Shown piece after piece: positions 4,090 through 52,678 of a DNA stretch of 64,000 bases (within the stretch, counting starts at the first letter, position 1; every line of letters starts with the position of its first letter). The notes beneath the pieces are model-generated. The model ran no database searches. It saw nothing but the letters and a program-made list of their open reading frames with translations, and was not told the DNA's origin. Location of the stretch: positions 71,986,707-72,050,706 of the forward strand of contig NC_081552.1 in assembly GCF_963082655.1 (NCBI RefSeq), written 5' to 3'. The DNA is from Stomoxys calcitrans (lineage: Eukaryota; Arthropoda; Insecta; Diptera; Muscidae). The translations under genes and the position numbers were made by a program.

Positions 4090-4760
4090 AGGAAATGCTC
4101 CAACGCCTCATCATCTAGCCCACATGTCGCACCGTTGAGCTCGTTGTCCTATGTGTCCCGTTATGATACTAAAAGCTATACTGACATCCTTCTTACTTCC
4201 TTTCAGTAATAGCCTCGTCCTCTCACGATCCGGATCACCCAATAGGATTTCCGCCGTCCAACCGATTGTTTCGCTATTCCACGGTGTTGGATGCGCGTTC
4301 GTCACCCACGCCATTAACACAGACTGCGTCGACCCGAAAGGCTTCGGGTTAACTAAGTTTATTGACGGCAGTTCTCTGGCCTGCACTGCCAAATCGTTTG
4401 CCCTTTCATTCCCCCTTACTCCGTTATGGCCCGACACCCAAACCATGCGGATTGTGCCATCCTCAGAGAAGGCGTTAATCTCCTTCTTACATTCCAAGAT
4501 TTTTCGTGACATTGCCGTCCTGGTTGTTATTGCTATAATGGGCATTTTACTGTCCGTAGAGATGTTCACACTCGACGTCCTCCCGTTAGCACCACACCAC
4601 ATTCCGTGATCGCCCGCATCTCCGCCTGCAGGACCGTATTATGGTCAGGCAGTCTAAAACAGATCGCAGTCCCTGGGTTCTCAATGTAGACCCTCAGGAC
4701 CACTCTATCCTCTAGCTCTGATCCATCCGTGTAACATGATCTTCCAGATGGCAATACTAG
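4090..4760 (-). pseudogene. LINE RNase H domain (degenerate)
   Basis: RNase H of the ORF2 polyprotein, which in active elements degrades the RNA strand after reverse transcription. Visible catalytic blocks on the minus strand are CYTDGSE (first Asp near 4726), LQAEMRAI (Glu), STDSK (Asp) and GNERANDLA. The last block normally has Asp where this copy has Asn, so the fourth acidic residue is lost. A frame change occurs near 4600. Downstream, toward 4090, is a HIGQRAQRC block followed by an LEHFLSHCPAF-like Cys/His tail, as in related insect elements. Confidence 0.75.
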
Positions 4761-11460: not shown

Positions 11461-12736
11461 GGTTATTTCACAAAAATACTATAAACAGGAAGGATACCTT
11501 GCAGAAATTTATATTTAGTAAAAGACGATGAGGGAATGCTCGGGTTTTTTATAACGAAGTAGTAGTCCTTCATTTGATTAAAATTTAAAATGTCCTGTTT
11601 CTGTAGTTTTAAGGTTTAAGGCCTAGTTATGCTCTCGCAAATGTACAACAAATGTAGCGTAAATGTAAAGATGCAATTTTGCTTATTACCAAACGCAGAA
11701 TTTGACATTTCAAAGAAAAAAAATTTTTTGAGACTCCGTTGCCGGCTTTACACCATTGTTGAATGCTTTCTATTCAAAGAATAGTATAGCAAAAAAATAT
11801 AAAATTCGGCAAAATGTGAGTTGTTGCTAGAAGCATTTGACTGGTTTCCCGTATCCCAATTTTATTTTTGACCACGAAAAATCATCGGCAGGAGATGTCA
11901 AAAGGATCATGGTGCTTTACATCCATTCCAACAAGAGTAAGTCGCAAAGCCCACATCTGAATTTGAACAGGGCTCTTTAAGACGATTTGATTCATAAGCG
12001 CAATAGTGGTGCTTGAAGTTGAGACGTCTCTTCAACTGAGGGAGTACGCAGTGGCGGCCTTCTCGAATATTGAGAGGGCATCCGCACGAGGAGGCAGAAT
12101 ACGGCCAAGTTTCCCTTATGGACACTATGGATGCGGTGGGCAGACTAAGGAGGGTTTCAGGTGATAGGGACTGGATTGGGACTATACTGCGACACACACA
12201 ACATTTCAGGGAGAGCAATGTACCATAATGGTAGACGTAAAAGAAATTCTGGAAAGGGATTTACAGTTTTCGAAATCAGTTGTTGTTGATAATGTCGTAG
12301 CCACATTTGTATGTGGGGGTAGCGATTCTTTCAAGCTCGTTCCGGTCAGCGATCGCCGCGGGAATGTTATGGCCATTGGTTATTAAAAGACATCAATAGA
12401 TCGCCTTGTCACATCGAGCATCACAGGCACTCAGTATTTCAGCAACAGCCGTTGCCGCCCGGCCTCTCGCGGAGACTCTTCCTTCGATACCGCTGATTGT
12501 CCGCGACTTTAATTGCAGCAACTCCGTATACAAAGCCTAATTGCAACCTATGGACTCGCCCAGTAGCTCTCAGCTGAGCTTCTCGTAATAACGATGAACA
12601 CCAAACAAATTGGAGCTCAGAGTTTCAACTGATGTGGTGCTTATAATCATCGCGTGCAGGGTCGAAATTAGTATGTGTATATGGTGTATATTAGTATGTG
12701 TATCAGTGCTAACATGGATTAGCAGATACGACAGCG
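11461..12736. other. Transposon flank with unclassified relics
   Basis: 11600-11760 is similar, in inverted orientation, to about 18350-18540 (shared AAGGCCTAGTTATGCTC-type and GTAAATGTA words). 11890-12640 has moderate GC content and reads like old coding debris: the minus frame at 11907-12218 is open for 103 codons but shows no domain I recognise. The last five bases, CAGCG (12732-12736), are the target duplication of the Transib element. Confidence 0.45.
12732..12736. other. Transib target-site duplication, left (CAGCG)
   Basis: Five bases CAGCG directly before CACAGTG, repeated exactly after the other end at 18086-18090. Length and GC-rich composition fit the Transib family. Confidence 0.93.
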
Positions 12737-14167
12737 CACAGTGGGCCAAATGGCAAAAAAATTGGAAATAAGTCTACAACTTTTTATCTGTTGATTTTAG
12801 CCATACAAAATGTTCTAGACATTTGTAGAGGAGGACATAGGCTTTCAGAAAAGTGCTGTTGTTGGTCCATATCTTTAATACAGGGTGAGCTACAGGGTGT
12901 CAAAGTTGACCACTTTTGACTTCTCCAAGCTTCTGGGGGCCATAACTTTTGATCTACTCAACCGATTTACATGATTTAGGACTCTAGAGAAAGAGCTTGA
13001 CAAGATCTAAAAAACTTATGCATAAAGTACCATGCCATCGTGTACTGTTAAGGAGTTATGAATTGTTTAATTTTAAAATATGAAAATTTGGCCTTGGTTT
13101 TTTTCAGTGTTTTTTTAATAACTCCGTCAATTTTAAAGCTATAAACTTCATACTTCACACAAATTATGCCAGCATATGTGTGCATAAAATACAAAAGGAA
13201 TCACGTGAATATCTTTGGCGGTTTAAAAATGGCATCGTTTTCAATATGAAAAATATTTTTTTTGTCAAAAAATTGCAAAATTTTTCAAAAAAGATACTCC
13301 CATTTCCTTTAAGTTTTCGCAAACTTTGGCCGTCAAAGCATTATCATTTCTTTCCATTTTCACAAAGTCGAGGTATTAAGAAAAGTTTTAAGTGCTAATT
13401 TGGCTAATTTCGATATCAAACAACACCGTTATCTTAAGACCAAAATGGCCAATTTTTTTACTAAACTTCAAAAGTTTCTCACTGGAAAAAAAGTTCCACG
13501 GGGATTTTTTCGCTTTTTTTGAACTTAAATGAAAGCTTAAAATGTTCCCAACATTTTAAGGTATGTCTCGCCATATCCTAGCCATAAATGAGATCGTAGC
13601 GATCAAAATACTGAAAAAAGTCAATTTTCAAGTAGTGCTATATTCATTGCTAAAAAACAAGTATTACGTCACATTTTATTGCAAAGATGTTAAATAAACT
13701 TTTATTTGGTAACACTTCTTCTACAAAACACAAAAAGAATCATGGAAATATCTCTATTCTATTCCATTTTATGGAACCGGCAATAAAAAAGTCAATTTTT
13801 CAAAAAAGTCGAATTTCCCAAATTTTGTTTTTGTTGTCCTAATTGCACATGACACACTATAGCCATATTTACGCAACATACCTTATCGTAAAGGAAATTT
13901 TCATACCTTTCCAACGATGTATAAAACATTTCTCAACTCGGATTCTATCTACTCTAAAATTCATTTACACTTCATTAAACTCTATATAAAAATGTCTATT
14001 TGTGAAATGGAACCTTATATGGGGCCTACACTAAAACATTGATAGATTTGCCCAGGGTTTACAATACAAATGTGTTAGAATAAAAAAAGGTCTCCTGCCA
14101 AAGTTTAAAAAAATTGGAATAAAAATATGTGTTTTAGAGCGAAAACACTTCGCATCGGCGTGCGTTT
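12737..14167 (+). repeat. Transib left terminal inverted repeat (1431 bp)
   Basis: Pairs with the reverse complement of 16655-18085. Position n on the left corresponds to 30822 minus n on the right throughout, for example 13180-13398 with 17424-17642, so no net indel has accumulated. The homology ends at CGTGCGTTT near 14167. After the CACAGTG heptamer and a 12-bp spacer lies an A-rich tract (AAAAAATTG), only a weak match to an RSS nonamer. The arm also holds several open frames without motifs; the 72-codon one occurs twice simply because of the inversion. Confidence 0.94.
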
Positions 14168-14215
14168 ATATGTATATTAGCTACTCCCAAAATAAAAAAG
14201 CATTTTAGTTTTGTA

Positions 14216-16258
14216 TTATTTGATTTTATTCTCTACCAAATAATCTAAGGTATCAAAATTTAAAAGCTCTTTAATTTGAATGGCATCGGGATCGTCCTTA
14301 TCTATATCGTCACATATTTTTGGTAGCCATTTAGTTCTGATGCTGTATAGTACCGGATCAGACGATAACAATAAATATTGAAGTAAATCATAATTTTGGT
14401 TAAATTTGGTGCTCTTTCGGGTATTGAAAAGCCGGAACTGTTTAACATCTCTATTACGGGATTCCTGAGCTTCTTCTGTAAGTTCTCCTAACGGAAGTAT
14501 GTTGTATTCCACAATTTCCTTGCCATGATGTAAGACTTTATGTACTGTCGGTGTTAAAGCTTTCCACGAATATAAATCAGATAAAATGTTTTTTGTGTCA
14601 TTACTATAAGCTTCAAATTTGGTTGAATTTATCATCTTTTTGCTATTGATTACAGCCAAAATCACTTTGAATCGTCTTAGCAAGTGTTCATCAAGACCGG
14701 TTATTTTAGATGTCGATACGGGGTCCTCAAAAAACCGCCTTGCCGAGTTGCCATCATTTGTGCTTCCGTATCCGTAAAGAGGTTTATCTATTATAAGTCC
14801 CTTTTGTTTAAACTCCAACTGGATTCGATTCTTCTCTTCCTGCCTCATTTTGTGAAGATCTTGGTTGTTTCTAGCAGAGACATCGCGGTTTCCAGGGCTA
14901 GTCCGATATTTAAGGTCATACGATAAATGCAAACAATACTCCATGAATCGAATTCTACAGTGCAGGGGCGAAATACCGAAATTGAGCGCATTTTCGTTTA
15001 CTAAATTTTCATCAGACTTGTCCTCGAATTGCCCATTCTTCTTGCCACAAATATTGCATCTCCAATTGGACATAACGCCAGTTAATGCGTTTGCCACCTT
15101 TCCATCGATCATAGTGAGTTGTAGTTGAAACGAAACTTTTATATTTCTTCCCAATTGGTTTATAACAATCATGGGTAATGCAGCAATTTCTTCCTTTATT
15201 TCGTTCACCAAAGATCGTGTTGTGTTCCGGTCTTCCTTTGTATACTCAAACCGAATTGGGCGACATAAATATTTTGACCCAGGTGTTCTATTTATCCATA
15301 TATCTTGAAATGCATTTTCTTTCGATGATGAAGATTGGTCCTTGTACAATCTCATTCTCAATGGTACTAATGATGCCATGAAAATTGATGCGAAGTTGGT
15401 ATCTATTTCTGTTTGTTGCTTATATTCGGAAAATCCAGATGATCCATCACAACCCCATTTGCTGATCAAAACCACTTCGGAATTATTACATGTGTTCAAC
15501 TGTTCTTCAGTAAAATTAGAAATAATTCTAACAGCTGTATTTTCAACAAGATCAGCAAGTTTCACTCTTGCTTTTAATTCGTCCACGTATATATTTGATG
15601 GCACCATTTTCGTCCTGGTGTTGTACAATTTATGTTTTGAGGGTAAACAACCCCATCCTTTTTCACGAAGAGCCTTCCTCATTGTTGAGTATTTGTTTCT
15701 TGAGAGGCCTAGGTTCAAAATCAGGGCCAGTGCATCTTCCTCCGTGAATTCTGTAGTCGATTTTGGAGTTGGAATACTTTCTACCATTCTCTTTACCCTT
15801 TTCGGAGATGCTAATGGTAAAACATCGACAATTCGTCCAACATTTTTTGGTTGTGTTTTTAACAATGCTGTTTTGAACGTATCTTTTATTAAATTTGGCG
15901 GATGTGCCGCCAATAGTTCCTCTTGTTTTTTCTTTTTGGTTTTCTCCGTAACTTCGTCGTATGCTTTGCTAGGCCGGCCGGGAATCAGCGGTTTAATTTC
16001 AATAAGTAGATCCGATTTCAGCCACTTCTCATACATTTTGAAAAACTTGATTTTTGCGAATGAACATTCTGGCAACCTTCTCTCAAATGATTTGTAGAAT
16101 TTTTCAAGTTTGTCTAAAGCGTCTTTATTTAGCCTTATTCCATATATGTGGTCCAAAGTGTAAACAAGTTCCTTAAATGACTCCGTGTATGATTTGGAAT
16201 CATTTTTGATGTCCCATACAATTTTCGAAAGAGTGGAATACTTCAGTATGACTTCCAT
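14216..16258 (-). CDS. Transib transposase, RAG1-like (680 aa)
   Basis: Cut-and-paste recombinase of the Transib/RAG1 family. Start chosen at the ATG at 16258; frame intact to TAA. Blocks matching RAG1-core landmarks: KWGCDGSSGFSEYKQ (residues 267-281; D271 corresponds to RAG1 D600), LTMIDGKVANALTG (381-394; D385 to D708), CNIC zinc knuckle (C401, C404), HKVLHHG (H573, H578, the paired zinc histidines) and EEAQESRNRDVKQFR (595-609; E599 to E962). The complete DDE triad and zinc ligands are therefore present. GYGSTNDGNSARRFF (496-510) is another conserved block. The N-terminal ~260 residues are Lys-rich and of unknown fold. No RAG2-like partner is encoded. An AATAAA lies over the last codons (14225-14230), and a TTTTGTAG acceptor-like site about 24 bp upstream of the ATG hints at a spliced 5' leader. 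The family call is confident; activity is untested. Confidence 0.93.
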   Translation of the reverse strand: MEVILKYSTLSKIVWDIKNDSKSYTESFKELVYTLDHIYGIRLNKDALDKLEKFYKSFERRLPECSFAKIKFFKMYEKWLKSDLLIEIKPLIPGRPSKAYDEVTEKTKKKKQEELLAAHPPNLIKDTFKTALLKTQPKNVGRIVDVLPLASPKRVKRMVESIPTPKSTTEFTEEDALALILNLGLSRNKYSTMRKALREKGWGCLPSKHKLYNTRTKMVPSNIYVDELKARVKLADLVENTAVRIISNFTEEQLNTCNNSEVVLISKWGCDGSSGFSEYKQQTEIDTNFASIFMASLVPLRMRLYKDQSSSSKENAFQDIWINRTPGSKYLCRPIRFEYTKEDRNTTRSLVNEIKEEIAALPMIVINQLGRNIKVSFQLQLTMIDGKVANALTGVMSNWRCNICGKKNGQFEDKSDENLVNENALNFGISPLHCRIRFMEYCLHLSYDLKYRTSPGNRDVSARNNQDLHKMRQEEKNRIQLEFKQKGLIIDKPLYGYGSTNDGNSARRFFEDPVSTSKITGLDEHLLRRFKVILAVINSKKMINSTKFEAYSNDTKNILSDLYSWKALTPTVHKVLHHGKEIVEYNILPLGELTEEAQESRNRDVKQFRLFNTRKSTKFNQNYDLLQYLLLSSDPVLYSIRTKWLPKICDDIDKDDPDAIQIKELLNFDTLDYLVENKIK

Positions 16259-16654
16259 AACTTATAAATGTCCTTTACGCCTCTACAAAATATAATGAAG
16301 AAAATTTGGATTTTGTTCAAATATTTATGCAATATATTCACAATTAATGACCCATTTCAGGTATCAGACGCAATCGTAAAAAGGGGTCCAAAGTGCCTCT
16401 TTTTACTTACTCTTCTATAATTATTTACCTGGACTCGAATTTGGTTAAAAAAAATGACAATGAATTTTTTATGGGTAGGTTTTTTCACATTCATTGATAC
16501 GGTGGATTTCCTGGGAATTCGACATAGCGAAACAGGTAACATTTGTCTGCATCAAATCTTAACACAAATATATATATATATGCAGGTATATTTCTAGGTT
16601 ACTTTTTATTCAAAAATCATCAGCTTACATTAAAAATAGATGTAGGTACTATAC
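16259..16654 (-). promoter_or_regulatory. Transib core leader region upstream of transposase
   Basis: The 396 bp between the start codon and the right inverted repeat. On the minus strand it contains a donor-like CCAG|GTAAATAA near 16428 and an acceptor-like TTTTGTAG|AGG near 16283, compatible with a 5' UTR intron. Splicing here would not extend the coding frame because a TAA lies between the acceptor and the ATG. No clear TATA box was singled out; the promoter may lie in the inverted repeat. Inference only. Confidence 0.35.
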
Positions 16655-18085
16655 AAACGCACGCCGATGCGAAGTGTTTTCGCTCTAAAACACATATTTT
16701 TATTCCAATTTTTTTAAACTTTGGCAGGAGACCTTTTTTTATTCTAACACATTTGTATTGTAAACCCTGGGCAAATCTATCAATGTTTTAGTGTAGGCCC
16801 CATATAAGGTTCCATTTCACAAATAGACATTTTTATATAGAGTTTAATGAAGTGTAAATGAATTTTAGAGTAGATAGAATCCGAGTTGAGAAATGTTTTA
16901 TACATCGTTGGAAAGGTATGAAAATTTCCTTTACGATAAGGTATGTTGCGTAAATATGGCTATAGTGTGTCATGTGCAATTAGGACAACAAAAACAAAAT
17001 TTGGGAAATTCGACTTTTTTGAAAAATTGACTTTTTTATTGCCGGTTCCATAAAATGGAATAGAATAGAGATATTTCCATGATTCTTTTTGTGTTTTGTA
17101 GAAGAAGTGTTACCAAATAAAAGTTTATTTAACATCTTTGCAATAAAATGTGACGTAATACTTGTTTTTTAGCAATGAATATAGCACTACTTGAAAATTG
17201 ACTTTTTTCAGTATTTTGATCGCTACGATCTCATTTATGGCTAGGATATGGCGAGACATACCTTAAAATGTTGGGAACATTTTAAGCTTTCATTTAAGTT
17301 CAAAAAAAGCGAAAAAATCCCCGTGGAACTTTTTTTCCAGTGAGAAACTTTTGAAGTTTAGTAAAAAAATTGGCCATTTTGGTCTTAAGATAACGGTGTT
17401 GTTTGATATCGAAATTAGCCAAATTAGCACTTAAAACTTTTCTTAATACCTCGACTTTGTGAAAATGGAAAGAAATGATAATGCTTTGACGGCCAAAGTT
17501 TGCGAAAACTTAAAGGAAATGGGAGTATCTTTTTTGAAAAATTTTGCAATTTTTTGACAAAAAAAATATTTTTCATATTGAAAACGATGCCATTTTTAAA
17601 CCGCCAAAGATATTCACGTGATTCCTTTTGTATTTTATGCACACATATGCTGGCATAATTTGTGTGAAGTATGAAGTTTATAGCTTTAAAATTGACGGAG
17701 TTATTAAAAAAACACTGAAAAAAACCAAGGCCAAATTTTCATATTTTAAAATTAAACAATTCATAACTCCTTAACAGTACACGATGGCATGGTACTTTAT
17801 GCATAAGTTTTTTAGATCTTGTCAAGCTCTTTCTCTAGAGTCCTAAATCATGTAAATCGGTTGAGTAGATCAAAAGTTATGGCCCCCAGAAGCTTGGAGA
17901 AGTCAAAAGTGGTCAACTTTGACACCCTGTAGCTCACCCTGTATTAAAGATATGGACCAACAACAGCACTTTTCTGAAAGCCTATGTCCTCCTCTACAAA
18001 TGTCTAGAACATTTTGTATGGCTAAAATCAACAGATAAAAAGTTGTAGACTTATTTCCAATTTTTTTGCCATTTGGCCCACTGTG
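16655..18085 (-). repeat. Transib right terminal inverted repeat (1431 bp)
   Basis: Mirror image of 12737-14167, ending in CCCACTGTG at 18085. The two arms are essentially identical wherever I compared them, including runs of A or T that normally drift quickly. A transcript crossing both arms would fold into a hairpin of about 1.4 kb. Confidence 0.94.
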
Positions 18086-18090
18086 CAGCG
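18086..18090. other. Transib target-site duplication, right (CAGCG)
   Basis: Exact copy of 12732-12736 next to the right heptamer. Confidence 0.93.
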
Positions 18091-22520: not shown

Positions 22521-23247
22521 GTTTACTTACAATGACTAGCAAGGAATATACTTTCTTGTAAAAAAATGCTTAAAGTATCATATCCCAATACACTGTTTAG
22601 GGAATGATGAGAAGTATATGAAGCTCAGCTTCTACCAAACGTTTGTTTATCTTTGCTCGATTTGCTCCTCTACTTACCGTTCTGCCTATATCCACTTCTA
22701 GGGTACTTGTGGGAGTTTCCATTGCCCATCCCTAGCATATATGTTATGAATCTAGCGAAAAGTAAACAGACCAAAAAAAAAAAAAAAACCAAAAGTATAA
22801 TGGGAAATAAAAAAAAATTAGTGACAAACAAATAAAAAAAAAAAAACAACATCAACTGATATCAGTTGCAACCCATATACAGGTGCTCGTGGTTTACTTA
22901 TCATCAATGCTAGAACACCGGGCACCAGCCAACAGCAAGCAAAGTTAGCATTAGCCAGAAGTTAGTAAAGAAATTGAGACCTTTAGTATACATTTCAAAT
23001 TGAAAAGGTTAAGGTTACCTTATATGAGGTGTTCTAGGGCGAGAAGGAAAAGTCAAAGTGTTAAGGAAATATACGCACCCCAACACTCTCGCAAAACACG
23101 ATCATTACAAGCTAATTTCCGTTGGAAGGGTAAATAAACAATCCACAGACATTATCTGACTAGTACTGAGAACATGTTGAGCAAAAAAAAAAAAAAAAAC
23201 ACCTTCAATTAAACGCTTCTTGCATTTTTGTTTTCTTTTTTCTTTAG
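22521..23247 (+). other. Probable intron upstream of the large host exon
   Basis: AT-rich with several A-tracts (22770-22850, 23180-23200) and a pyrimidine-rich tract TTTTGTTTTCTTTTTTCTTTAG ending at the acceptor 23246-23247. No upstream exon could be identified with confidence. Confidence 0.45.
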
Positions 23248-26183
23248 ACCAATTGTCATAGTTGATGACTTGAGTCAGCAGAAATCATCTTCCAGCTTAG
23301 CTGAGGTAGTGAAAACGGAACAAAAAGCAACGGAAGACGAAACGAAAACACCGGCTAATAATACCTCCTTGGTGAAATTAAAGAAGCCCGCTTTTATAGG
23401 AGTGCCTGTATTGCCACCCACTGTGCCCACTGAGCAGTTGGAGAATCTAAAAAAAAATTTGAAGGAAGCCAAGGCGATTGACAAAAAAATGAGCGAATCG
23501 AAGGAGGATGTAAAGATTATGACCATTAGTGGGGAAGGGGAGACGAATGAAAAGAGCGAAAATAGTGAGGAGAAACTAAAAGCAGGTGATAAGATAAAGC
23601 CTGATGAAGTAACCAAGGCCATTGAAGAAATTGATGGCTTGAAGTTACAGAAATCTGAAGCTGACACTGGAACTCCTCTACTGCAGTCCAAGGAAGCTAA
23701 GCCCACAGCTGAAATTCACTCAGCTTTTGAAAGCACAAAGGAAGAGCAAAAACAAGAACACAGCGAAGTTGTGAAGACTTCTTCCACCGCCATAAGCCAG
23801 GACAGTTCCCATGCCTGCCATTCCTCCCAGGAAATGACAACGGAAACTCAACATAGCACCATGAAAACCGAAACCAAAACTACCACGACTATGAAAAAGG
23901 TTATCAAATCATCATCGACCACCACGTCACAAGTGGTGGAAACAAATGTCAGCGATTTAAGTTTGGAGGCTATGCCTGAAGAACTTACACAGCTTATAAA
24001 CTCCTCCTCCAAGGCCACGGAGTCATCCATACCCGAGGAGTTTAAGAAAATGTTGACTGCCTCAAAATCTCCTTTGGAGAACAAAACGATTTCGTTTACC
24101 TTGCAACCCTATGCGGAACGAAAAGGCAACACCAAGATAACTGTGCTCGAAGAACGCCAATTTGAATCGGATCAAAAGGCCTATTCCGAGATAAGGACCA
24201 AGGACTCAAAAACCGGCGAGGAAAAGGTACAAAAATCCTCCGAAACTCATAAGGAGAGGGCCAAACTTAAGAAAGTCCAATCCCATGATAGTCTCGATGA
24301 TCAGGAGGCCTCAGCGAAACCGTTAACGGTTACCGCCCAAGCGGAAACACGATTATCGGAAGAGGCCCATAATCCACAAGATAAGCAAAGTATTGTCCGA
24401 GGTATTTTGAATTTATCGGAGTGTGGTAAACAAATGCAGCCGAACAACATGGGTGGGGTGGATATGGTGGAATGTGAACATCAGGTGTTGGAGACTTTTG
24501 AAGACTCCGAGCATACACTCTCCGCCGATAAAAAGGAGAACAAGCTAAACACTGAGGAGCAACCCAGCTTGATAAGAGAGATTTGTGAGACTTTGACTGT
24601 TTCCAAAGATGGTGATACCCAAGTGACCAAACATAGTGAGATCACCAAGGAGGTGCCCAATGAGGAGATCTTCAGGGCGGCCAAAGAAGAGCAGCTCTTT
24701 AAATCTGAAAGCCAAGAGAAGCTAAGCGACATAGACCATCAAAAGCAAAAGGCCAAAAGTTTGTTGGAAGATCAAACCCAGCAGCTGATTGAAGATGTGC
24801 TCAAGGATGCTGAGAAACAGGTTCTAAAGCAGACCGAAAAACAAAGACCAGTTTCAAAGAAGGGTCCCAAATTGGTTAAGAAAACCGAGGAGGAAAAGAA
24901 ATTGGAAATGGAGGCTCAAAAACTTATCGATAGCTATCAGAAGGTGCGCAAAGAAGCTGAGAAGCTATTCCAATATGATAGCTTCAAAGATGAGGACGAT
25001 GGTTTTGATTTGAGTGGTTTGGAAGAAAAGGATGAAAAGCCAATAAAGACAGAATCAATTCAACCCGAACAGATAATAGAGATTAAAGAAAACATAGAAA
25101 TTGAAAGTAAACCTGAAGATGCCGAAAAATCAGATAGTGACATTTTGTCATCCCCTGTAGTCATATCTCCCAGTTCCTCGGAAGATTTCCTTAAAGAAGA
25201 ACCCAGTTACGTGTTGCACAAAAATATACTTGAAGAAAACAAAGTAGAGGAAAATCTGGATCGCAAGGAAACACAAGAAGAATCCCAAATTGCAGAAATT
25301 GTAAACCACATAGATAAAGAGGTAACTTCCCCTAAGGAAACTGTCCCCCTTAGTCCTGGCGGAACCAAGGAAATCATAGAAATTGAGGAAATAACCACTG
25401 AGGAAATAGTTCTGAAATCTGTCAAGATTTCTCCCAAAGCCCATACGAAACTCTCTCCCAAAACTTCTCCTAAACTTTCACCCAAATTAAAGAAAAGCGA
25501 AAAGAAATCCAAACATGAGACGGATACCACACAAGAGGAATCCACTTCATCTAAACTCAAACCCAAACCAGCTCCCAAGCCCAAACCTCCAGTTCCACAA
25601 CGCAGAGGTAGTGCTGATATCGTTAAACCCATACCCAAGAGAAGAGGTTCTCTGGAGACATCTACCACTGTTATATCACCTAAAGAGTTAAAAGAGGAAA
25701 TCAAAACCACAACTCCGATTATTGAAATGCCCACACCCATGGAGCGTATAATAGTGGGTGTAGAACATCACATTGTTATACCCACGGCAGTGTTGAAAAG
25801 TGATCCCACACCTACAACGTCACCAGTTGCAACCGTACCTTCCCAAATGGTCATAACATTGGCCAGTGAAAATTTACCTTCGGTGGTTGAAAACCAATCG
25901 CCCATACAATCAAATTTCCCCTTGCTAACACAAACTGCTTCGGGAGATCTATTGGAGACCATACATTTGCCAAATGTCTCTTCAGCCTCGGATGTGACAC
26001 AAGCGGCTAGGGATATTTTAACCTCTTCTTCGATGGATTCTATACAAAGTGTAACGGAAACAATTGAAGACCATGAAGTGACCACCATGCCCACAACTGA
26101 TGAGGAGGAATCTTTGAAATCATTGGAGCAGGATACCCTGGAGATGAAAGTTGCCGAGGAGCGAGATAAGAATAAAATTGAAG
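23248..26183 (+). CDS. Large exon of host gene, disordered Lys/Glu/Ser-rich protein
   Basis: Open for about 979 codons and bounded by a good acceptor (TTTCTTTAG|ACC, 23247/23248) and donor (GAAG|GTGAGT, 26183/26184), with entry phase 2 and exit phase 1. The frame has no plausible early ATG, so earlier exons must exist. The product is low complexity: Thr/Ser runs (TETKTTTTMKK near 23870), charged helices (LEMEAQKLIDSYQK near 24900-24950), an acidic patch DEDDGFDLSGLEEKDE (about 24990), SPK repeats (KLSPKTSPKLSPKLKK, about 25450) and a proline-rich SH3-ligand-like segment KPAPKPKPPVPQRRGS (about 25565). Codon use is clean and gene-like, unlike its surroundings. The composition suits a large cytoskeletal or scaffolding protein, but I do not recognise the gene. 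Confidence 0.88.
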
Positions 26184-26250
26184 GTGAGTAGAAAGATTGT
26201 TTTAAATATCATTTAAGGATTTACATTGAACTTTTATTGAAATTCTTTAG
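26184..26250 (+). other. Predicted 67-bp intron
   Basis: GTGAGTAGAAAG at the 5' side and a pyrimidine-rich TTTATTGAAATTCTTTAG acceptor. Length is in the classic range for short fly introns. An alternative acceptor (TTTTTTCAG at 26272) would lead to an immediate stop. Confidence 0.6.
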
Positions 26251-26331: not shown

Positions 26332-27997
26332 AACAAGTAAAAACGTGCTAAGTTCGGCCGGGCCGAATCTTATATACCCTCCACCATGGATCGCATTTGT
26401 CGAGTTCTTTCCTGGCATCTCTTCTTAGGCAAAAAAGGATATAAGAAAAGAGTTGCTCTGCTATTAAAACGATATCAAGATATGGTCCGGTTCGGACCAC
26501 AATTAAATTATATGTTGGAGACCTGTGTAAAATTTCAGCCAATTCGTATAAGAATTGCGTCCATTGGGGCTCACGAAGTAAAATAGAGAGAACGATTTAT
26601 ATGGGATCTGTATCGGGCTATAGAACGATTCAGACCATTATAAACACGTTTGTTGATGGTCATGAGAGGATCCGTCGTACAAAATTTCTGGCATATCGGA
26701 TAATAATTGCGACCTCTAGGGGTCAAGAAGTCAAGATCCCAGATCGGTTTATATGCCAGCTATATCAGGTTATGAACCGATTTGAACCTTATTTGACACA
26801 GTTGTTGAAAGTAAAAATAAAATATGTCATGCAAAATTTCAGCCAAATCGGATAGGAATTGCGCCATCTAAAAGCTCAAGAAGTCAAATCCCCAGATCAG
26901 TTTATATGACAGCTATATCAGGTTATGGACCGATTTCAACCATACTTGGCACAGTTGTTGGATATTATAACGAAATACTTCGTGCAAAAATTCATTCAAA
27001 TCGGATAAGAATTGTGCCCTCTAGAGGCTCAAGAAGTCAAGACCCAAGATCGGTTTATATGGCAGCTATATCAGGTTATGGACCGATTTGAACCATACTT
27101 GGCACAGTTGTTGGGTATCATAACAAAACACGTCGTGCAAAATTCCATTCCATTCGGATAAGAATTGGGCCCCCTAGAGGCTCAAGAAGTCAAGACCCAA
27201 GATCGGTGTATATGGCAGCTATATCAGGTTATGGGCCGATTTGAATCATACTTGGCACAGTTGTTGGATATCATAACAAAACACGTCGTGCACAATTTCA
27301 TTCTGATCGGATAAGAATTGTGCACGCTAGAGGCTCAAGAAGTCAAGACCCAAGATCGGTTTATATGACAGCTATATCAGGTTATGAACCGATTTCCACC
27401 ATACTTGGCACAGTTGTTGGATATCATAACAAAACACGTCGTGCGAAATTCCATTCCTATCGGATAAGAATTGCGCACTCTAGAGGCTCAAGAAGTCAAG
27501 ACCCAAGATCGGTTTATATGGCAGCTATATCAGGTTATGGACCGATTTGAACTATACTTGGCGCAGTTGTTGGATATCATAACAAAACACGTCGTGCAAA
27601 AATTCATTCCAATCGGATAAGAATTGCGCACTCTAGAGGCTCAAGAAGTCAAGACCCAAGATCGGTTTATATGGCAGCTATATCAAAACATGGACCGATA
27701 TGGCCCATTTACAATACCAACCGACCTACACTAATAAGAAGTATTTGTGCAAAATTTCAAGCGGCTAGCTTTACTCCTTCGGAAGTTAGCGTACTTTCGA
27801 CAGACAGACGGACGGACGGACGGACGGACGGACGGACGGACGGACGGACAGACGGACGGACATGGCTAGATCGACATAAAATTTCACGACGATCAAGAAT
27901 ATATATACTTTATGGGGTCTCAGACGAATATTTCGAGTAGTTACAAACAGAATGACGAAATTAGTATACCCCCCATCTTATGGTGGAGGGTATAAAA
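26332..27997 (-). mobile_element. DINE-1/Helentron-like element, A type, copy A1
   Basis: Minus orientation. The 3' terminus (read here first) is ACAAGTAAAAACGTGC plus the palindrome TTCGGCCGGGCCGAA (26354-26368). Then come eight unit starts 153 bp apart (about 26593 to 27663), a long (GGAC)n core at 27804-27860, and a 5' block with ATATATACTTTATGGGG and CCATCTTATGGTGGAGGG. Terminal hairpin, tandem core and microsatellite match the known layout of DINE-1/HINE elements in flies. No protein is encoded: the open frames here are the 51-codon unit repeated. It is almost identical to 34760-36559. Confidence 0.8.
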
Positions 27998-29003
27998 ACA
28001 AGTAAAAGCGTGCTAAGTTCGGCCGGGCCGAATCTTATATACCCTCCACCATGGATCGCATTTGTCTAGTTCTTTTTCCGGTATCTCTTCTTAGGCAAAA
28101 AAAGGATATAAGAAAAGATTTGTTCTGCCATTAGAGCGATACCAAGATATGGTCCGGTTTGGACCACAATTAAATTATATGTTGGAGACCTGTGTAAAAT
28201 GTCAGCCAATTCGAATAAGAATTGCGCCTTTTAGGGGCTCAAGAAGTAAAATAGAGAGATCGATTTATATGGGAGCTGTATCGGGCTATGGACCCATTCA
28301 GACCATAATAAACGTTGATGGTCATGAGAGAATCCTTCGTACAAAATTTCAAACAAATCGGATAATAATTGCGACCTCTAGAGGCTCAAGAAGTCAAGAT
28401 CCCAGATCGGTTTATATGACAGCTATATGAGGTTATGAACCGATTTGAATCTTATTTGACACAATTGTTGAAAGTAAGAATAAAATACGTCTTGCAAAAT
28501 TTCAGGCAAATCGCATAGAAATTGCGCCCTCTAGAAGCTCAAGAAGTCAAGTCCCCAGAACTGTTTATACGACAGCTATATCAGGTTATGAACCGATTTG
28601 TACCATACCTGGCACAATTGTTGGATATCATAACAACATACTACGAGCAAAATTTCATTCCAATCGGATAAGAATTGCGCACTCTAGAGGCTCAAGAAGT
28701 CAAGACACAAGATCGGTTTATATGGCAGCTATATCAAAACATGGACCGATATGGCCCACTTACAATACCAACCGATCTACACTAATAAGAAGTATTTGTG
28801 CAAAATTTCATGCGGCTAGCTTTACTCCTCCGGAAGTTAGCGTGCTTTCGACAGACAGACGGACGGACGGACGGACGGACATGGCTAGTTCGACATAAAA
28901 TGTCGCGACGATCAAGAATATATATACCTTATGAGGTCTCAGACGAAAATTTCGAGTAGTTACAAACAGAATGACCCCCCATCCTATGGTGGAGGGCATA
29001 AAA
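27998..29003 (-). mobile_element. DINE-like A-type element, copy A2 (tandem with A1)
   Basis: Starts exactly where A1 ends (TATAAAAACAAGTAAAAGCG) with its own palindrome TTCGGCCGGGCCGAA. It holds about four 153-bp units, a short (GGAC)n core near 28858 and the GGTGGAGGGCATA end. More divergent than A1. Confidence 0.78.
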
Positions 29004-34759: not shown

Positions 34760-36559
34760 AACAAGTAAAAACGTGCTAAGTTCGGCCGGGCCGAATCTTA
34801 TATACCCTCCACCATGGATCGCATTTGTCGAGTTCTTTCCTGGCATCTCTTCTTAGGCAAAAAAGGATATAAGAAAAGAGTTGCTCTGCTATTAAAACGA
34901 TATCAAGATATGGTCCGGTTCGGACCACAATTAAATTATATGTTGGAGACCTGTGTAAAATTTCAGCCAATTCGTATAAGAATTGCGTCCATTGGGGCTC
35001 ACGAAGTAAAATAGAGAGAACGATTTATATGGGATCTGTATCGGGCTATAGAACGATTCAGACCATTATAAACACGTTTGTTGATGGTCATGAGAGGATC
35101 CGTCGTACAAAATTTCTGGCATATCGGATAATAATTGCGACCTCTAGGGGTCAAGAAGTCAAGATCCCAGATCGGTTTATATGGCAGCTATATCAGGTTA
35201 TGAACCGATTTGAACCTTATTTGACACAGTTGTTGAAAGTAAAAATAAAATACGTCATGCAAAATTTCAGCCAAATCGGATAGGAATTGCGCCATCTAAA
35301 AGCTCAAGAAGTCAAATCCCCAGATCAGTTTATATGACAGCTATATCAGGTTATGGACCGATTTCAACCATACTTGGCACAGTTGTTGGATATTATAACG
35401 AAATACTTCGTGCAAAAATTCATTCAAATCGGATAAGAATTGTGCCCTCTAGAGGCTCAAGAAGTCAAGACCCAAGATCGGTTTATATGGCAGCTATATC
35501 ATGTTATGGACCGATTTAAACCATACTTGGCACAGTTGTTGGGTATCATAACAAAACACGTCGTGCAAAATTCCATTCCATTCGGATAAGAATTGGGCCC
35601 CCTAGAGGCTTAAGAAGTCAAGACCCAAGATCGGTGTATATGGCAGCTATATCAGGTTATGGGCCGATTTGAATCATACTTGGCACAGTTGTTGGATATC
35701 ATAACAAAACACGTCGTGCACAATTTCATTCTGATCGGATAAGAATTGTGCACGCTAGAGGCTCAAGAAGTCAAGACCCAAGATCGGTTTATATGACAGC
35801 TATATCAGGTTATGAACCGATTTCAACCATACTTGGCACAGTTGTTGGATATCATAACAAAACACGTCGTGCGAAATTCCATTCCTATCGGATAAGAATT
35901 GCGCACTCTAGAGGCTCAAGAAGTCAAGACCCAAGATCGGTTTATATGGCAGCTATATCAGGTTATGGACCGATTTGAACCATACTTGGCACAGTTGTTG
36001 GATATAATAACAAAACACGACGTGCAAAATTTCATTCTGATCGGGTAAGAATTGCGCACGCTAGAGGCTCAAGAAGTCAAGACCCAAGATCGGTTTATAT
36101 GGCAGCTATATCAGGTTATGGACCGATTTGAACTATACTTGGCGCAGTTGTTGGATATCATAACAAAACACGTCGTGCAAAAATTCATTCCAATCGGATA
36201 AGAATTGCGCACTCTAGAGGCTCAAGAAGTCAAGACCCAAGATCGGTTTATATGGCAGCTATATCAAAACATGGACCGATATGGCCCATTTACAATACCA
36301 ACCGACCTACACTAATAAGAAGTATTTGTGCAAAATTTCAAGCGGCTAGCTTTACTCCTTCGGAAGTTAGCGTGCTTTCGACAGACAGACGGACGGACGG
36401 ACGGACGGACAGACGGACGGACATGGCTAGATCGACATAAAATTTCACGACGATCAAGAATATATATACTTTATGGGGTCTCAGACGAATATTTCGAGTA
36501 GTTACAAACAGAATGACGAAATTAGTATACCCCCCATCTTATGGTGGAGGGTATAAAAA
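34760..36559 (-). mobile_element. DINE-like A-type element, copy A4, near twin of A1
   Basis: Same order and nearly the same sequence as 26332-27997, but with nine instead of eight 153-bp unit starts (35021 to about 36244) and a shorter (GGAC)n core near 36390. Flanks differ from A1, so it is a separate insertion or has been homogenised by gene conversion. It terminates the plus-strand LINE. Confidence 0.8.
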
Positions 36560-49516: not shown

Positions 49517-50876
49517 AAACAAGTAAAAGCGTGCTAAGTTCGGCCGGGCCGAATCTTATATACCCTCCACCATGGATCGCATTTGTCGAGTTCTTTTCCC
49601 GGCATCTCTCCTTAGGCAAAAAAAGGATATAAGAAAAGATTTGCTCTGCTATTAGAGCGATATCAAGATATGGTCCGGTTTGGACCACAATTAAATTATA
49701 TGTTGGAGACGTGTGTAAAATGTCAGCCAATTCGAATAAGAATTGCGCCCTTTGTGGGCTCAAGAAGTAAAATAGAGAGATCGATTTATATGGGAGCTGT
49801 ATCGGGCTATATACCGATTCAGACCATAATAAACACGTATGTTAGTGGTCATGAGAGAATCCGTCGTACAAAATTTCAGGCAAATCGGATAATAATTGCG
49901 ACCTCTAGAGTCTCAAGAAGTCAAGATCCCAGATCGGTTTACATGGGAGCTATATCAGGTTATGAACCGATTTGAACCATATTTGGCACAGTTGTTGGAT
50001 ATCATAACAAAATACTACGTGCCAAAATTCATTCAAATTGGATAAGAATTGCACCCTCTAGAGGCTCAAGAAGTCAAGACCCAAGATCGGTTTATATGAC
50101 AGCTATATAAGGTTATGGACCGATTTGAACCATACTTAGCACAGTTGTTGAATATCGTAACAAAACACGTGGTGCAAAATTTCATTTCAATCGGATAAGA
50201 ATTGCGCGCTCTAGAGGCTCAAGAAGTCAAAACCCCAGATCGGTGTGTATGGCAACTATATCAGGATATGGACCGATTTGAACCATACTTGGCACAGTTG
50301 TTGGATATCGTAACAAAACATGTCGTGCAAAATTTCATCCCAATCGGTTAAGAATTGCGCACTCTAGAGGCTCAAGAAGTCAAGACCCAAGATCGGTTTA
50401 TATGGCAGCTATATCAGGTTATAGACCGATTTGAACCATACTTGGCACAGTTGTTGGATGTCATAACAAAACACGTCGTGCAAAATTTCATCCCAATCGG
50501 ATAAGAGTTGCGCACTCTAGAGGCTCTAGAAGTCAAGACCCAAGATCGGTTTATATGGCAGCTATATCAAAACATGGACCGATATGGCCCATTTACAATA
50601 CCAACCGACCTACACTAATAAAAAGTATTTGTGCAAAATTTCAAGCGGCTAGCTTTACTCCTTCGGAAGTTAGCGTGCTTTCGACAGACAGACGGACGGA
50701 CGGACGGACGGACGGACGGACGGACGGACGGACAGACGGACGGACATGGCTAGATCGGCATAAAATTTCACGACGATCAAGAATATATATACTTTATGGG
50801 GTCTCAGACGAATATTTCGAGTAGTTACAATCAGAATGACGAAATTAGTATACCCCCCATCTTATGGTGGAGGGTA
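49517..50876 (-). mobile_element. DINE-like A-type element, copy A8
   Basis: Palindrome TTCGGCCGGGCCGAA, six 153-bp unit starts (about 49783 to 50548), (GGAC)n core at 50697-50747 and the TATGGTGGAGGG block at 50861. Fewer units than A1/A4/A5, but the same ends. Confidence 0.8.
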
Positions 50877-51728: not shown

Positions 51729-52678
51729 TTGGGTTGCCCAAAAAGTAATTGCTGATTTTTAATATAGTCGGCGTTGACAAATTTTAAGCAAATTTTAAGC
51801 ATTAATCGAATTGGATCGTCATGTAACTGAGCGTGAGATAGGAGAGAAGTTAAATATACCAAAATCAACCGTTCATTATCACATAAAAAGTCTTGGACTG
51901 GTGAAAAAGCTTGATATTTGGGTACCACATGTATTAAAAGAAATTCATTTAACAAACCAAATCCACGGTTGTGATATGCACCTTAAACGCAATGAATTCG
52001 ATCCGTTTTTAAAACGAATCATAACTGGAGATGAAAAATGGATTGTTTTCAACAACGTTAGTCGAAAACGATCAAGGGCCAAGCATGGTGAACCAGCTCA
52101 AACCACTTCAAAGGCTGATATTCACCAAAAGAAGGTTATGCTGTCTGTTTGGTGGGATTGGAAGGATGTGGTATATTTTGAGCTGCTTCCAAGGAACCAA
52201 ACGATTAATTCGGATGTTTACTGCCAACAATTGGACAAATTGAATACAGCCATCAAGGAGAAGCGACCAGAATTGGTCAATCGTAAAGGTGTCATATTCC
52301 ACCAGGACAACGCTAGACCGCACACATCTTTGGTCACTCGCCAAAAACTGAGTGAGCTTGGCTGGGAACTTTTGATGCATCCACCATATAGCCCTGACCT
52401 TGCACCACCAGACTACCGTTTATTTCGATCTTTGCAGATCTCCTTAAATGGTAAAACTTTCGGCAATGATGAGGCTATAAAATCGCACTTGGTTCAGTTT
52501 TTTGCAGATAAAGGCCAGAAGTTCTATGAGCGTAGAATACTAAATTTGCCAGGAAGATGGCAAAAGGTTATCGAACAAAATGGCAATTATATATTTGATT
52601 AAAGTTCATTCTAAGTTTTATTAAAAATGCATTTACTTTCTTTTAAAAAAATCCGCAATTACTTTTTAGGCAACCCAA
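51729..52678 (+). mobile_element. Mariner element, 950 bp, N-terminally deleted
   Basis: TIRs starting TTGGGTTGCCCAAAAAG and flanked by TA at 51727-51728 and 52679-52680. About 350 bp shorter than a standard 1.3-kb mariner. The 5' leader breaks off after GCGTTGACAAATTTT and rejoins in the second DNA-binding domain, at a duplicated AAATTTTAAGC stretch. It belongs to the same family as the two 236-bp MITEs; this copy can no longer make a full transposase. Confidence 0.92.
51811..52602 (+). pseudogene. Mariner transposase, N-truncated, catalytic triad kept
   Basis: Open for 263 codons against about 345 for a full mariner transposase; the first HTH (roughly 80 residues) is deleted, and the first Met is not the native start. 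Retained: second HTH (REIGEKLNIPKSTVHYHIKS, residues 8-27), WVPH linker (37-40), ITGDEKW with D74, VIFHQDNARPH with D166, and HPPYSPDLAPPDY with D201. The spacing D166-D201 gives 34 intervening residues, the D,D34D signature of mariner proper. No internal stop or frameshift. Without the first HTH it should not bind its TIR normally, although it might oligomerise with full-length protein. Confidence 0.9.

Follow-up and report, generated by a model that had tools for sequence, protein, structure and literature searches.

A Transib transposon of Stomoxys calcitrans with long inverted-repeat arms that evolve in concert within a young, mostly intact family

Results

An intact Transib element in the stable fly genome

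We analysed a 64,000-nt stretch of contig NC_081552.1 from Stomoxys calcitrans, referred to here as the window, and give all element coordinates as positions within it. Between 12737 and 18085 lies an element of 5,349 bp that is a new member of Transib, a known transposon superfamily related to RAG1. Read directly, the element starts with CACAGTG, finishes with CACTGTG and carries the same five bases, CAGCG, on either flank (Table 1). The two arms form a perfect inverted repeat, with the first mismatch at offset 1431, and make up 53.5% of the element. Tandem repeats within them are weak and short only, with a best score of 53. The core between the arms contains the transposase gene, an ATG frame that runs unbroken on the minus strand. 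A preliminary description of this DNA had proposed the same boundaries, ends, duplication and frame, and direct reading bears all of them out. The window contains no further copies of the element, the best matches being short chance ones. TTTATT and TATA words near the transposase gene are chance occurrences and were not used.

Table 1. Coordinates of the element and its parts in the window
Feature	Position	Strand	Basis
Target-site duplication CAGCG, left copy	12732..12736		read directly; copy comparison
Left terminal inverted repeat, 1,431 bp, perfect against the right; heptamer CACAGTG at 12737-12743	12737..14167	+	arm alignment
Single-copy core between the inverted repeats, 2,487 bp	14168..16654		first arm mismatch at offset 1431
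Transposase gene, 680 aa, one exon; DDE triad D271/D385/E599, zinc ligands C401/C404/H573/H578	14216..16258	-	open frame, homology, alignment
Transposase codons 94-96 (Gly-Arg-Pro, GRP), position of the GRP motif of the RAG1 nonamer-binding domain (NBD)	15971..15979	-	frame; G94 and P96 at least 90% conserved; PMC9435367 (available text)
Right terminal inverted repeat, 1,431 bp, terminates in CACTGTG (18079-18085)	16655..18085	-	arm alignment
Target-site duplication CAGCG, right copy	18086..18090		read directly; copy comparison

The preliminary description had likened the ends to recombination signal sequences (RSS). This holds for the heptamer and fails for the nonamer. Scored against the RSS nonamer ACAAAAACC, the element end reaches at best 6 of 9 positions (spacers of 9 and 11), with 5 of 9 at a spacer of 12 and 4 of 9 at a spacer of 23. 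The 12/23 asymmetry of V(D)J-type signals is absent, because both ends are identical over 1,431 bp, and the heptamer alone is RSS-like.

The transposase resembles that of HzTransib

The best sequence match of the transposase in the PDB is HzTransib (E 6.8e-84, residues 165-643), which upholds the Transib and RAG1-like identity suggested earlier. The DDE triad aligns with D126/D225/E436 of that protein, and in an alignment of 26 sequences the columns of D271, D385, E599, C401, C404, H573 and H578 are invariant or at least 90% conserved, so the catalytic and zinc-binding positions named in the preliminary description stand as well. The match to RAG1L is weak (E 5.1e-5). Among 7,997 candidates scored we found 178 homologues at E ≤ 1e-3; one scan of viral contigs found no relative. 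The element thus combines the marks of a Transib member, namely a homologous transposase with a RAG1-like fold, the DDE triad with C2/H2 zinc ligands, a 5-bp duplication and terminal inverted repeats (TIRs) that start with a CAC-type heptamer.

Related classes fit less well. Considering unspliced frames, the element has no second gene: apart from one frame antisense to the transposase there is no ATG frame of at least 100 aa, and hence no convergent RAG2-like gene of the kind that marks RAGL/ProtoRAG elements. Nor did we find the P-superfamily transposase and internally repetitive arms that define Galileo/Foldback elements. Two further Transib-like proteins named Stomoxys calcitrans, P0042 and P0054, are 48% and 37% identical to the transposase studied here, so more than one Transib lineage seems to be present in the species.

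The family is young, abundant and mostly intact

Exact matches were counted on both strands of the Stomoxys calcitrans genome, which comprises 297 contigs and 1.07 Gb. For the 19-nt end CACAGTGGGCCAAATGGCA there are 787 + 771 = 1,558, and for the same sequence read backwards, used as a control, 0 + 0. At two ends each this would correspond to about 780 copies, or roughly 4.2 Mb and 0.4% of the genome. At the transposase start codon, a 24-nt stretch gave 365 + 363 = 728 matches. Among the first 100 ends listed, a hand count placed 96 in 48 pairs and left 4 single. Two end pairs are spaced about 14.6 kb (G000:C1:23890603-23905186) and about 7.0 kb (C1:65466957-65473980) instead of 5.35 kb, and are probably copies with another insertion inside.

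We read 41 copies in full, comprising 40 of the 48 listed pairs and the copy in the window, all with exact 19-nt ends on both sides. Every one of the 41 is flanked by a perfect 5-bp duplication. Together with the excess of exact ends over the control, this places the element far beyond chance. The duplications follow the consensus CGNCG, with C first in 33 of 41, G last in 36 and the full motif in 15, and all 41 have CG on at least one of the two sides. A less marked bias is seen in the flanks, towards A immediately before the duplication and T or G immediately after it, which makes the target roughly palindromic.

Pairwise divergence among the copies averages 0.144% and does not exceed 0.544%. 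Twenty-three copies have a length of exactly 5,349 bp, and 36 reach 5,250 bp or more. The 680-aa frame is intact in 32 of the 41, all seven key residues are complete in each of these 32, and in 17 copies, the one in the window included, the protein is identical to that of the window copy. Five copies (L017, L025, L035, L046 and L048) have large core deletions, one of which extends about 10 bp into the right arm; such deletions fit what interrupted gap repair would leave.

In the cores of 40 copies we counted 29 private substitutions in 93,713 bases. L025 was left out of this count only, and kept in the other statistics, as it has twelve clustered, misalignment-like differences beside a 924-bp deletion. 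Taking the Drosophila rate of 2.8e-9 per site and generation, the 29 substitutions translate into about 110,000 generations, which is a rough upper estimate since any assembly errors are counted as substitutions too. The changes in the coding sequence (31 nonsynonymous, 5 synonymous and 3 stop, against 73%, 21% and 6% expected) include the L025 cluster and are uninformative on selection. The preliminary description had called the insertion recent and possibly still active; the low divergence and the perfect duplications support a recent origin, and a differing duplication length in other copies, which it had named as refuting its reading of the element, was not seen.

The two arms of a copy evolve in concert

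Within a copy, the two arms differ from each other at 0.067% of positions, against 0.173% for arms taken from different copies. Summed over the copies there are 39 differences within copies; when right arms were shuffled among copies 10,000 times, the mean was 99.7 and the minimum 80. Concerted evolution of the arms is also evident in individual variants. For the seven arm variants present in at least two copies, the summed count is 40 cases with the variant in both arms of a copy and 14 with it in a single arm. Genome-wide, 188 + 194 arms carry allele 596A, and the first 100 places listed form 42 same-copy pairs and 16 unpaired places, the latter possibly including copies truncated on one side and the final entry listed. 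This means that 72% of copies are paired, against 14% if arms were independent. Three private variants lie in both arms of their copy, and for two of these we have genome-wide counts: 918T occurs twice, in both arms of L029, and 1259A twice, in both arms of L022. The third is 287A.

Among five arm sites all four allele combinations are present in 8 of 10 site pairs, and alleles have therefore also been exchanged between arms or copies. Diversity is lower in the core (0.096%) than in the arms (0.17%), and one core variant only is common to more than one copy. We read the concerted pattern as gene conversion from arm to arm, either while the burst was under way or later.

Other features in the window

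Several open stretches lie outside the element. The plus strand carries a 267-codon stretch at 51799-52602 that matches a mariner-type transposase (PF01359, E 3.4e-29), its N-terminal part missing in frame, and a 992-codon Lys/Glu-rich stretch at 23213-26191 that has no Pfam match at E ≤ 0.001 and is probably an exon of a large host protein. An RNase H-like fragment on the minus strand at 4111-4638 (PF00075, E 2.3e-9) is probably of non-long-terminal-repeat retrotransposon origin. Two near-identical 136-codon stretches on the plus strand, 26445-26855 and 34873-35283, lie about 8.4 kb apart, which suggests a local duplication or a dispersed repeat. Related stretches with TDGR (GACGG-type) tandem repeats are present on the plus strand at 27551-27940, 28449-28898 and 50435-50824.

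Discussion

A recent burst with arms probably kept alike

The explanation that we hold with high confidence is that of an autonomous cut-and-paste Transib transposon whose family has just burst and whose arms are kept alike by gene conversion. By analogy with its family, the 680-aa transposase would bind the identical CACAGTG ends and, like HzTransib and RAG, act through nicking and hairpin formation on the DNA that flanks the element. Insertion into the observed CGNCG-like targets would proceed by a 5-bp stagger and leave the duplications that we see. Copy number could rise through repair of the donor gap with the sister chromatid or the homologue as template, a step that the core deletions in 5 of the 41 copies would fit. 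Conversion between the arms may occur in situ, or else through template switching while the gap is repaired. The family may still be active today; in these terms the earlier reading of the element as Transib, recent and possibly active, is supported.

Several observations weigh against this explanation. Of the 28 private arm variants, 25 are in one arm only, and the arms are unlike at one or more of ten tabulated sites in 12 of the 41 copies, which would make conversion frequent and yet incomplete. The 40 further copies all lie within the first 58 Mb of a single contig, and selection by exact ends under-counts truncated or diverged copies, so that the intact fraction describes end-complete copies. 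In a Pfam scan of the transposase the RAG1 model fell narrowly below its cut-off. PF26100, which is precomputed for relatives, was absent from that scan. Lastly, perfect inverted repeats of such length are hard to assemble, and the identity of the arms could be an artefact in which the reads of one arm corrected the other. We think this very improbable. Mis-mapping among hundreds of near-identical copies should favour the family majority and not the partner arm, the pairing of 596A extends over more than 200 Mb of contig C1, and the 12 copies with unlike arms have retained their differences.

The concerted pattern could also have arisen before the burst, if several founder copies with already homogenised arms started it and no conversion followed. 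Most copies do fall into a few equal-arm haplotypes, four of which account for 59 of the 81 gap-free arms at the ten sites. We nevertheless consider this unlikely, since both of the tested variants that are private to one copy genome-wide sit in both of its arms, mixed copies exist at sites where others are uniform for either allele, and the four combinations in most site pairs require exchange after the alleles arose. Alternatively, an older and silenced invasion might look young through conversion between copies. The recombination of arm variants among copies, seen as four-gamete failures, is in keeping with this, but the core is also nearly invariant, and the duplications remain perfect although their unique flanks are not homogenised by conversion and would decay with age. 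We consider this alternative very improbable.

A further and more tentative idea, which we think less likely than not, is that this Transib is now expanding in a living insect and that gap repair after each excision copies one arm onto the other, coupling conversion to transposition. If true, both ends would be renewed together and the element would escape decay into end-mismatched non-autonomous copies, which would explain why the RAG1-like transposase is still intact in 32 of the 41 end-complete copies.

The element is of interest for the young, mostly intact burst and the conversion of the arms. To our knowledge well-characterised active Transib members are scarce, HzTransib being the one with structures among the PDB matches. 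Hundreds of near-identical, mostly intact copies are a natural supply of matched ends and transposase, which would serve tests of how RAG1-like enzymes choose targets and handle symmetric ends outside the 12/23 scheme, and the long arms make it possible to ask directly whether conversion between inverted repeats is linked to transposition. If the insertions are polymorphic in the stable fly, they would be generating mutations in a livestock pest at present.

Comparison with known systems

A limited literature search found no paper on the present family or on Transib in Stomoxys calcitrans, and none that brings together Transib and "long terminal inverted". Long TIRs are not in themselves a novelty among Transibs, because Hztransib of Helicoverpa zea is described with them in the available text of PMC1852546, together with a length of 3,518 bp, a 5-bp duplication GCTCG and a 489-aa product. 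Both elements have a RAG1-like transposase without RAG2, the same DDE residues, 5-bp duplications and long TIRs. The present element differs in its core identity of about 35-36%, its length of 5,349 bp, its 680-aa product with a longer N-terminal part, its perfect 1,431-bp arms and its roughly 780 copies.

Transibs with symmetric ends are already known, judging from the portions available of PMC8355894 and PMC9435367. The latter also describes the GRP motif as common to Transibs and the RAG1 NBD, and a subgroup II to which most Transibs known earlier belong, its TIRs being either symmetric or asymmetric and its NBD equivalent bearing GRP. The symmetric ends and the GRP at 94-96 are like those of subgroup II, an assignment made by resemblance to HzTransib only and not from a tree. 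The target motif CGNCG fits the CNNNG duplication given for Transib-type miniature inverted-repeat transposable elements of Helicoverpa armigera in the available text of PMC7764229.

ProtoRAG/RAGL elements, as far as the text at hand of PMC7204232 describes them, share the RAG1-like core, the CAC ends and the 5-bp duplications with the present element, but here no second gene is seen among unspliced frames and similarity to RAG1L is weak. Very long TIRs, as known from partial sources, are a likeness to Galileo and other Foldback-like elements. Galileo is of the P superfamily and has internally repetitive arms, whereas here the transposase is Transib and the tandem repeats of the arms are weak; terms for gene conversion do not occur in two Galileo papers. 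A comparable insect burst is that of Mariner-2_DF in the fire ant, likewise an autonomous DNA transposon that expanded recently, with 857 copies and a pi of 0.0051 (PMC6307670, available text). Mariner-2_DF belongs to another superfamily and measures 1.3 kb; the element studied here is about fourfold longer, and its copies, at 0.14%, are about three to four times less diverged.
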